64,000 bases of DNA from Buchnera aphidicola (Panaphis juglandis). GTDB lineage: Bacteria > Pseudomonadota > Gammaproteobacteria > Enterobacterales > Enterobacteriaceae. This document shows, in pieces, positions 4,388 to 7,792 of the stretch (the first letter of the stretch is position 1; each line of letters begins with the position of its first letter). The notes beneath the pieces are model-generated. The model was not told the origin of the DNA. It saw nothing but the letters and a program-made list of their open reading frames with translations, and did not search any database. The stretch covers positions 186,001 to 250,000 of the forward strand of contig NZ_OZ060378.1 in NCBI RefSeq assembly GCF_964059065.1, in the 5' to 3' direction. Made by a program: the position numbers and the translations under genes.

Positions 4388-4560
4388 TTGATATATTATA
4401 AATTGATATCATAATAATATATTATAATGTACTTTATGATAAATTTAAATTAATATTTAAGTTCTTGATCTTTATATAATTTAATTTTTATGAAATTTTA
4501 TATTAAAAATATATATTACATAATACATACATATTTATTTTTAATAAAAGGTTGTTGAAT

Positions 4561-5592
4561 GTGAAGTACGATGATCAAGAAAAAACTGAAAAACCAACTC
4601 GTAATTATATTAAGAAAGCTCAAGATCAAGGTTTAAAAAATTATTCCATTCAGTTGAATACTTTTATGATTTTATTATCTGGTTTTTTATCAATTTGTAT
4701 TTATAATAATCAGATTTTTTTATTTTTTATAAAAATACTTACTTTAGGTTTTTCATTTCAACATGATAATATTTTAGATAATTATTTAGATTCAGGTTTT
4801 TTACATTATGTACTAATACAATTTTTATATTTTTTTTTAATTTTTTTTTTTATTTCTTTTAGTTTTCTTTTAATTACACCTTTTTTTTTTAATGGTTTTT
4901 TTTTTAAATGGAGTTTTTTTAAGTTTTATTCATTAAAAATGAATATTTTTAATAAAATTAGTATGTTTTTTTCCTTGGAATTATATTTTAGTTTTTTTAC
5001 GAAGTTAATGATGATACTGATGATATTTTTAACAACTTGGGTATATTTCATTTATTGGTTTTTTGAAATAAACAATTTAAGTTTTTTATTACCATTTTCA
5101 TCTTTTAATATGATTATGAAATCATTATTTTATTTTTTTATTTTTATTTTATTTAGTTTAATTCCAGTAATGGTTTTTGATATTTTTTTTAAAAATATTT
5201 TTTATTATAGAAAATTAAAAATGAGTCGTAGAGAAATAAAAGATGAACAAAAAAAATCAGGTATAAATTTTCATATTAAACAGATAATTTATAAAAAACA
5301 AAATCAACTGCTGAAAAAAAAAATGTTAAATGTTAGTTTTGATAAATATGTTTTATTTTTTTCTTTAAATTATGCTGTTGTTATAAAATATTCTTTAAAA
5401 GAAAAATATGATTTAAAAATTATTTCTAAAGGTTGTGGTAAAAAAGTATTAAAAATTAAAGAAGTTGCTTTTAAAAATAATATTTTAACTATTTTAGAAA
5501 CAAAATTAACGTATGATTTATATGTATATGGTGTAATAAATTCACCTGTTCCTGATAAATACTATAGTGAAGTTATTAAATTTTTAAAATGA
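4561..5592 (+). CDS. flhB: Flagellar export gate protein FlhB without NPTH site
   Basis: Inner-membrane component of the flagellar type III export apparatus. The N-terminus EKTEKPTRNYIKKAQDQG matches the FlhB family, four hydrophobic segments follow, and the cytoplasmic C-terminal domain ends in a segment recognisable from YAVVIKYSLKEKYDLK onward. I chose the GTG at 4561 (343 residues) because AAAAGG at 4546-4551 is well placed; a TTG at 4552 would overlap that site. Where family members carry the autocleavage motif NPTH this protein has FSLN (codons 5359-5370). Self-cleavage normally switches substrate class from rod and hook to filament. Followed by flhA after about 100 bases, as in E. coli. 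Confidence 0.93.
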   Translation: MKYDDQEKTEKPTRNYIKKAQDQGLKNYSIQLNTFMILLSGFLSICIYNNQIFLFFIKILTLGFSFQHDNILDNYLDSGFLHYVLIQFLYFFLIFFFISFSFLLITPFFFNGFFFKWSFFKFYSLKMNIFNKISMFFSLELYFSFFTKLMMILMIFLTTWVYFIYWFFEINNLSFLLPFSSFNMIMKSLFYFFIFILFSLIPVMVFDIFFKNIFYYRKLKMSRREIKDEQKKSGINFHIKQIIYKKQNQLLKKKMLNVSFDKYVLFFSLNYAVVIKYSLKEKYDLKIISKGCGKKVLKIKEVAFKNNILTILETKLTYDLYVYGVINSPVPDKYYSEVIKFLK

Positions 5593-5689: not shown

Positions 5690-7792
5690 ATGATTATAAA
5701 TATTATTTTTTTTACTATATTAAATATTATCAGAAAGATTAAATGGAAGAAATTATTTGGATCTATTTTTATTTTAATCATTTTATTCATGATGATATTA
5801 CCACTCCCTTCTTTATTTTTGGATATTTTTTTTACATTTAATATCATTCTTTCAATTATGATGCTTTTAATTTCAATGTTTATAAATGATGTATTGGAAT
5901 TTTCATCTTTTCCTACTATGTTATTATTTTCGACGTTATTAAGATTATCTCTCAACATTGCTTCTACTAGAATTATTTTGTTAAAAGGTCATTTGGGTCT
6001 ATTTTCTGCCGGTCATGTTATTGAATCATTCGGTAATTTTTTAGTTGGTGGAGACTTTTTAATTGGAATTATTATATTTATTATTTTAATTATTATTAAT
6101 TTTATTGTTATTACTAAAGGCTCTGAACGCATTTCAGAGGTGAGCGCAAGGTTTGCTTTAGATGGTCTTCCTGGTAAACAAATTTCAATTGATTCTGATT
6201 TGAATACAGGATCGATTAATTCGGATATTGCTAAATATCGCCGTTTAAAAATATTAAGAGAAGCAAATTTTTATGGTGCTATGGATGGTGCTAGTAAATT
6301 TGTTAGAGGTGATGCTATTGCAGGTATTTTAATTATGGTTATTAATATTTTTGGTGGTTTATTGATTGGAATTTTTAAACATCATATGAAATTAATAGAA
6401 GCTAGTACGTCTTATACGATACTAACTATTGGTGATGGATTGGTTGCTCAAATTCCTTCATTAATGATTTCAACAGCTGTTGGGGTTATTGTAACAAGAG
6501 TTGACACTAAAAAAAATATTAGTGAACAAATTTTTAATCAGATATTTCATAATACAAATGTTATTTTATTAACTAGTATTATAATTGGTATTTTAGGATT
6601 TATACCTGGAATGCCTAATTTGGTTTTTTTATTTTTTACATTTTTTTTAATATTAATTTTTTTAGTAATCAAAATGTCTAAAAAAAATATTTTGAATAAA
6701 GATGTTATGAAAACTAATAATATTAATAATATATCTAATTCTGATCATTATTCTTATAATGTTTCATGGAATGATGTTGTTTTAGAAGACGTGATACGTA
6801 TAGAAATTGGTTCTATGTTAATTTCAATGATTGATATTAATAAAAAAAATAATTTATTTACTTTAATTGATCTTTTTAGGAGAGATTTTGCTAAAAAAAT
6901 TGGTTTTTTACCTGATTCAGTACATGTTATTACTAACTTAAATTTGTCTCAAGACTTTTATCGTATTGTTATTAATGGTATTGAATATGGAAGAGGAAAA
7001 ATTTTTATTGATCATTTGGTAGCTATTGATATGGGTAACGTAAAAAAAAATATTTCTGGAAAAAAAATAATAAAAGATATTTTTAAAATGCCTGCTGTGT
7101 GGATTCCAATATCTTTAAAATTAAAAGCTGAGAGATATCAATACTGTATTATAGATCCTGAAGAATTAATTATTACTCATTTTAGTAACATTATGTTTGA
7201 AAATTTAAAAGATATATTTAGAAGATCTGAATTGCAAAAACTATTAGATTATACATCCACTAAAATTCCAAACCTTGTTGATGAATTGATTCCAAAAATT
7301 ATGGATTTAACATGTTTACATAAGGTATTAAAAAATTTGTTGATGGAAAATATTCCTCTTCGAGATATGCGAACCATTTTAGAAACATTGATTGAATATG
7401 CTTCACATAATCAAGATTCAGAAAAATTAACTAGTTTAGTTCGTTTGTCTTTAAGTAAATTTATTACACAAAATTTATTTTATAATAAGGATACGATTCA
7501 TGTTATGCGTTTTGATGCAGAATTAGAAAATAAAATTCTAAAAATATTGGAATCTAAAGATATTGTTTTTGATCCTGTTTTTAAAGAATTATTATTAGAA
7601 AAAGTTGGTAATGCTATTTCATATCAAGAATCTATGAATGATCCCTTAGTGTTACTAGTGAGACATACTATACGAAGTTTTTTGTCTGTTTTTTTACGTG
7701 ATTATTTTAAGAAATTAATTGTTTTATCTGATCTTGAAATATCAGATAATAAGAATATTATTGTAAAAAATATGATATCATTTTCAATATAA
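5690..7792 (+). CDS. flhA: Flagellar export gate protein FlhA
   Basis: Main membrane component of the flagellar type III export gate. 700 residues against 692 in E. coli, so full length. The N-terminal half carries about eight hydrophobic segments. The family signature region is clear: RLSLNIASTRIILLKGH and GHVIESFGNFLVGGD, then KGSERISEVSARFALDG and PGKQISID in the cytoplasmic loop. The large soluble C-terminal domain, which docks export substrates, is intact to the end. The start ATG at 5690 is the only sensible one. It follows flhB and forms an isolated flhBA pair. Just after the stop, bases 7789-7807 can form a small imperfect hairpin, perhaps a weak terminator facing convergent argS. Confidence 0.97.
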   Translation: MIINIIFFTILNIIRKIKWKKLFGSIFILIILFMMILPLPSLFLDIFFTFNIILSIMMLLISMFINDVLEFSSFPTMLLFSTLLRLSLNIASTRIILLKGHLGLFSAGHVIESFGNFLVGGDFLIGIIIFIILIIINFIVITKGSERISEVSARFALDGLPGKQISIDSDLNTGSINSDIAKYRRLKILREANFYGAMDGASKFVRGDAIAGILIMVINIFGGLLIGIFKHHMKLIEASTSYTILTIGDGLVAQIPSLMISTAVGVIVTRVDTKKNISEQIFNQIFHNTNVILLTSIIIGILGFIPGMPNLVFLFFTFFLILIFLVIKMSKKNILNKDVMKTNNINNISNSDHYSYNVSWNDVVLEDVIRIEIGSMLISMIDINKKNNLFTLIDLFRRDFAKKIGFLPDSVHVITNLNLSQDFYRIVINGIEYGRGKIFIDHLVAIDMGNVKKNISGKKIIKDIFKMPAVWIPISLKLKAERYQYCIIDPEELIITHFSNIMFENLKDIFRRSELQKLLDYTSTKIPNLVDELIPKIMDLTCLHKVLKNLLMENIPLRDMRTILETLIEYASHNQDSEKLTSLVRLSLSKFITQNLFYNKDTIHVMRFDAELENKILKILESKDIVFDPVFKELLLEKVGNAISYQESMNDPLVLLVRHTIRSFLSVFLRDYFKKLIVLSDLEISDNKNIIVKNMISFSI

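Follow-up and report, generated by a model that had tools for sequence, protein, structure and literature searches.

What remains of a flagellar export gate when FlhB can no longer cleave itself, and is such a gate still of use to the cell? The question is raised by the flhB gene of Buchnera aphidicola from Panaphis juglandis, which lies within a 64,000-nucleotide stretch of that genome (NZ_OZ060378.1, positions 186,001 to 250,000). We call the whole of this stretch the window. An earlier note, made from its letters and open reading frames, had pointed to FlhB as a protein without its autocleavage motif and had seen in this a possible locked export gate, which would suit a re-purposed exporter.

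An FlhB protein without its cleavage motif

The flhB gene occupies positions 4561..5592 on the + strand and encodes a protein of 343-346 aa. Its longest open frame (4552-5592, 346 aa) begins with TTG, and the GTG at 4561, which gives the 343 aa form, is the likelier start. The product matches the Pfam profile PF01312 (Bac_export_2) from end to end (164.2 bits, cut-off 24.4; profile 1-332 of 335), and this is the single match to the profile in the whole genome of 433,824 bases, which is one contig. The gene adjoins flhA (5690..7792, +) in the same orientation, and FlhA is itself full length, including its cytoplasmic domain (FHIPEP, 751 bits, profile 1-656 of 657). Window FlhB is the same as E. 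coli and Salmonella FlhB in its length, its membrane part, its pairing with flhA and, according to a predicted model, the fold of its C-terminal domain; it differs from them in lacking Asn-Pro-Thr-His and in having a changed docking pocket.

At the motif site (5359..5370, +) the codons TTT TCT TTA AAT encode F-S-L-N. Both flanks align, and FSLN takes the place of E. coli NPTH without a net gap, both in an alignment with E. coli and Buchnera-like genes and in one with ten database homologues. NPTH is present in 30/30 flhB genes of large-genome Enterobacteriaceae, a control set that consists of the best 30 by score of 219 matching genomes (295 searched), is biased to good scorers and is assumed, from genome size, to be free-living. 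The reported loss of the motif is borne out by this comparison. The premise that the motif Asn is required for cleavage and switching holds as well, since in excerpts of PMC3708937 and PMC13344023 the Asn269->Ala form of Salmonella FlhB neither cleaves nor switches.

Two sources of error had been raised for this site, an intact NPTH elsewhere and a sequencing error at a T-rich spot. With both flanks aligned and one PF01312 match in the genome, no intact motif was found. Because the CC dinucleotide is absent from 5330-5400, Asn-Pro can be encoded there in no frame, and as the other two frames are full of stops, one homopolymer miscount cannot mask an intact motif. A protein search with window FlhB listed no second near record, the 10 other matches listed having 22-26% identity, and no Buchnera was among the 80 loci listed by a scan of contigs with FlhA. 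The window protein is a true FlhB that, judged by its sequence, would no longer be able to cleave itself.

The C-terminal (CC) domain (5362..5589, +) follows a transmembrane part and linker (4561..5358, +), which is the portion retained in the truncated relatives described below. An AlphaFold2 model of the window protein (11-row alignment; whole-model pTM 0.46) has the fold of the C-domain, with a ten-residue mean pLDDT of 69-88 from residue 271, and the best Foldseek matches of the model are the solved cytoplasmic domains of FlhB, EscU and YscU. On the strength of this model, window FlhB retains the FlhB/SctU cytoplasmic domain fold. The modelled domain is also similar to the EscU N262D and YscU N263D mutants, which are autocleavage-dead according to the titles of their structures. 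The Asp that replaces the motif Asn in these mutants is also seen in three Hormaphidinae, G237, G296 (Mindarus-type), Cinara confinis and some Cinara-type Buchnera, whereas the window protein has Phe.

Distribution of the motif and its link with fliK

The earlier note had proposed to align FlhB from many Buchnera lineages, and this comparison shows that the loss recurs. Our set comprises all 35 flhB-matching genomes of 400-700 kb, of which 7 (of 11 in all) belong to the genus of the window and 28 come from 12 further genera. Asn-Pro is kept in 16/35 and lost in 12/35, and in 7/35 the C-terminal domain itself is missing. Two 700-kb genomes of genus g101, tabulated besides, read NPIH and NPTN, and for this reason changes at Thr or His only were not scored as loss. 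Among the 16 keepers, four have the exact NPTH and 12 have another residue in place of Thr (I, V, S, M or L), one of these also in place of His. The Melaphis genome (G187) reads NATH, and a further 11 C-domains are without Asn-Pro, including those with FSLN (the window genome), NTIS (G006), NAKN, NTMN and an unclear site in G109. Across the Cinara-type genus, three members of which are within the 35, Asn-Pro occurs in 0/16 genomes.

The presence of Asn-Pro goes together with room for fliK. A fliK slot was defined as a fliJ-fliM interval of 671-1341 bases (17/35 genomes). In the 18 genomes of the no-slot group the interval is either closed, at <=305 bases (9), or fliI and/or fliM was undetected in the fetched stretch (9). 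Asn-Pro is kept in 16/17 genomes with the slot and in 0/18 without it (Fisher p 4e-9, for genomes that are related to one another). FliK can be recognised in 10/17 slot genomes, in two of them weakly, and the fliJ-fliM interval of G101 is without a 60-codon frame on the + strand. The lone slot genome without Asn-Pro is G187, where the FliK match is weak. In the window genome the interval measures 305 bases, and FliK was not found in the fetched stretches of its fli region.

On a tree of FlhA, FliP, FliQ and FliR, there are two changes in the slot and three in Asn-Pro. The independent pairs for the two characters number one that is supported and at most two, which leaves a tree-aware pairing test without power, and the clade that unites five switch-less genera has a support of only 60/16. 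Because the tree allows about two independent events, the association between the fliK slot and Asn-Pro is a consistent pattern that is not tree-significant.

Export substrates and the docking pocket

The fli stretch of the window genome includes FliE, FliF, FliG, FliH, FliI, FliJ, FliM, FliP, FliQ and FliR, and the FliE candidate is the sole early substrate found in the genome. Searches of the whole window genome gave no match to the Flg_bb_rod profile, to Buchnera-based profiles of FlgB/C and FlgF/G, or to FlgD and FlgI. The Buchnera-based profiles are the better test for rod genes, because in Cinara-type genomes they recovered divergent rod genes to which Flg_bb_rod had given no match. The hook protein FlgE was covered via Flg_bb_rod and, weakly, via the FlgF/G profile; FliC and FliD lay outside the query set. 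FlgK, FlgL and FlgM had no match in the fetched flagellar stretches of the genome, and Flk was found in 0/41 small genomes, the window genome among them, with 4/4 large-genome controls positive. The window genome thus departs from E. coli and Salmonella in that Flk and the rod genes were not found in it, nor FliK in its fli region. In 11/11 genomes of the genus none of flgB, flgC, flgF and flgG was found, whereas excerpts of PMC8109811 describe these four genes as well maintained across lineages.

According to excerpts of PMC13344023, early substrates dock on Salmonella FlhB at A286, P287, A341 and L344. The aligned residues of window FlhB are D/L/I/L, the first two (Asp-Leu) being encoded at 5410..5415 (+), so that 1/4 is kept. 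Switch-less genomes that have rod genes (three Hormaphidinae and three Cinara-type) keep 2-4 of the four residues, and those in which rod genes were not found (n = 12) keep 0-2, with one in the window genome. The two groups differ with a Mann-Whitney p of 0.0009, which is uncorrected for relatedness and comes from hand-entered scores in which 7 domain-less genomes of the 12 count as 0.

Other flagellar genes persist unevenly in these genomes. FlgD is kept in G001 (Sarucallis-type; L214:10695-11369) and in G006 (L219:9732-10433), where no FlgB/C/F/G was found; in both, FlgD is conserved towards its C-terminus and divergent towards its N-terminus. FlgH and FlgI, of the L and P ring, are kept in G004 (Phyllaphis fagi-type; L217:8910-10500) and G005 (L218:9223-11023), which have no flhB/fliP match. 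The genes murJ-flg-rne are grouped together in several other Buchnera, and two stretches of the window genome covering 249,000-283,900 (L213:2695, left of a putative rluC) gave no MurJ, Flg or Rne match. In the fli cluster of the window genome (L149), fliJ is split over two frames. The FliM match there is part of a single 435-codon frame, and a separate FliN was not found; G020, G062, G191 and G269 likewise have long FliM frames without FliN.

Loss of the C-terminal domain

The C-terminal domain is missing from five genomes of the window's genus (Therioaphis-, Sarucallis- and Takecallis-type and two others) and from two Mindarus-type genomes. For six of these seven genes the alignment with E. 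coli FlhB ends at residue 245-259 of the latter; that of G008 is ambiguous past that point, and the truncated gene of G119 is frameshifted too. Between the stop codon of flhB and the point where the flhA frame opens, the distance is 67-76 bases in G010, G002 and G001 (76-195 to the first flhA Met codon), which is less than the 342 bases that a domain of 114 residues would need. The gap is about 157-346 bases in G003, G008, G119 and G225, and a recognisable remnant of the C-domain persists in G225. Truncation amounts to four changes on the FlhA+FliPQR tree.

A general relaxation of constraint on the C-domain after loss of the motif was considered and rejected, as C-domain identity to E. coli, taken relative to that of the membrane part, is no lower in uncleavable than in cleavable proteins (p 0.98). 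Several Cinara-type genomes (L241-L249, L145) have the reverse of the arrangement in the window's genus, with the N-terminal half of flhB apparently broken and the C-domain frame open.

A laboratory strain of Salmonella offers a close comparison. As described in excerpts of PMC13344023, a strain that lacks flk, the C-terminal domain of FlhB and the rod-hook genes other than fliE exports a late substrate constitutively, whereas its secretion of an early substrate has ceased. One laboratory stop in Salmonella FlhB lies at residue 258. The truncated Buchnera relatives are similar to this strain, in that rod genes and Flk were not found in them, nor FliK in the fli region, and FlhB ends at about residue 245-259. 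The Salmonella strain was supplied with the late substrate and its secretion was measured, whereas the truncated Buchnera are known here by their genes alone.

Maintenance of the gate core

FlhA is full length in 21/21 genomes examined, including all 7 with a truncated FlhB, and the frames of FliP, FliQ, FliR and FlhA are open in 7/7 genomes of the window's genus that keep the gate. Within the FlhA membrane part, 92/281 columns are invariant across 18 switch-less genomes. These columns reflect constraint and do not point to a new role, because the membrane part is better conserved in cleavable genomes too. The FlhA residues D456, F459 and T490, which we take to be those that serve late chaperones, are patchily changed within the window's genus; because the FlhA cytoplasmic domain is less conserved in every genome compared, we draw no reading from these changes. 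In FlhA, R94, K203, D208 and D249 are shared by 38/38 aligned rows. According to excerpts of PMC3139655, export depends critically on R94, D208 and D249, and of the acidic residues only D208 is essential.

Purifying selection acts on truncated FlhB in G002 (Takecallis-type) and G003, the single measurable pair of truncated genes. The FlhB frame has a dN/dS of 0.046 (2dlnL 31.6 against neutrality), compared with 1.8 and 3.9 for the other two frames of the gene, in which each sequence has 26-31 stops. As synonymous change in this pair is near saturation, the value itself is rough and the contrast between frames is the safer guide. Most pairs are saturated, among them two other truncated pairs in which neutrality is rejected with no usable dN/dS. 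A finite dN/dS, with 0.09 for the membrane part, was obtained for FlhB of G296 and G225, only one of which is truncated.

Plain decay is also under way. This follows from the lack of any flhB or fliP match in 4/11 genomes of the genus, from the frameshifted flhB of G006 and from the broken Cinara-type genes.

A probable stepwise dismantling of the switch and its alternatives

These gene losses are probably best explained by a switch module that has been removed from a surviving FlhA-FliPQR-FlhB gate core, so that the early-to-late switch would have been dismantled in steps. In the first, fliK would be lost and the Asn-Pro of NPTH would go too, which would leave FlhB permanently uncleaved. The docking pocket would be largely retained as long as rod genes last, and the Hormaphidinae and Cinara-type Buchnera may represent this state today. 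In the second step the rod and hook genes would be lost, and the pocket, followed by the C-terminal domain, would become purposeless. The window genome, where the domain is present and the pocket is gone, may stand at this point. The domain would finally be lost from a point slightly upstream of the former cleavage site, as in the Therioaphis-, Sarucallis- and Takecallis-type genomes and two relatives; in Mindarus-type Buchnera this would be a separate loss on the tree. What stays intact in several lineages is FlhA, FliP, FliQ, FliR and the membrane part of FlhB. As far as can be judged from the genes, this remaining gate core would most likely still serve as a membrane pore, or as an exporter without ordered switching.

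Neutral decay is a possible, if doubtful, alternative. If the export apparatus had become functionless in this lineage, then the motif, the pocket and the domain would simply be rotting towards complete loss, and the four genomes of the genus without an flhB or fliP match, the frameshift in G006, the split fliJ of the window genome and the odd remnants that differ by species (FlgD without rod genes, FlgH and FlgI without the gate) are what such a process would leave. Three observations speak against it, namely the open frames of the gate genes in every genus genome that keeps the gate, the purifying selection on truncated FlhB in the measurable pair and the invariant columns of the FlhA membrane part in switch-less genomes.

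We consider it rather unlikely that several lineages have gone further and that the stripped gate, composed of FlhA-FliPQR and an FlhB without its C-domain, is selected as an unswitched, voltage- or proton-driven pore that moves non-flagellar cargo. Such a gate, in genomes where rod genes, ruler and Fluke were not found and where in some species no ATPase was found in the fli region, would be a natural counterpart of the constitutive gate of Salmonella.

The locked gate proposed in the earlier note is quite unlikely to be the explanation. An FlhB locked in its uncleaved form would have the gate export rod/hook-type substrates permanently, as a re-purposed exporter on hook-less basal bodies, and excerpts of PMC3708937 and PMC13344023 report that uncleavable Salmonella FlhB does remain in early mode. 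The proposal is the better fit to the Hormaphidinae and Cinara-type Buchnera, which are without Asn-Pro and the fliK slot, yet retain some of the rod genes together with 2-4 of the four residues of the pocket. It fits the window genome poorly, because the rod-hook mode needs both rod/hook substrates and the docking pocket, and here the rod genes, FlgD and FlgI were not found and the pocket is gone. In five relatives within the genus the C-terminal domain itself is missing.

An artefact, by which a sequencing error in the T-run at the motif site or a misalignment would conceal an intact motif elsewhere, is extremely improbable, given that no frame yields Asn-Pro, that the frame is intact on both sides, that the genome has one FlhB match and that the sole other C-domain in the genus, that of G006, is likewise without Asn-Pro.

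Implications for Buchnera

Uneven loss of flagellar genes among Buchnera lineages and the hypothesis that export has been re-purposed are already published (excerpts of PMC8109811 and PMC3246468, the latter referring to Toft and Fares 2008). The discussion section of PMC8109811 states that the purpose of Buchnera basal bodies and export genes 'remains unknown'. In the passages of that paper considered here, neither cleavage nor truncation of FlhB comes up ('cleav' has 0 occurrences in the paper), and a partial survey of the open-licence literature found no account of either in Buchnera. In excerpts of PMC1084347, 'Buchnera' and 'NPTH' both occur, in unrelated mentions.

The Buchnera genomes can be arranged as a series that runs from a cleavable FlhB with the fliK slot, through an uncleavable FlhB with rod genes and an uncleavable FlhB without them, to an FlhB without its domain and, at the end, to no gate. 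They provide natural genotypes to hold against the 2026 Salmonella model, in which, according to the excerpts cited above, the gate is freed once Fluke and the C-terminal domain of FlhB are removed. The series suggests which parts are retained longest, and at least in the window's genus these are the gate core and not rod/hook export. It also makes the question of why the apparatus is retained testable, through species chosen along it.
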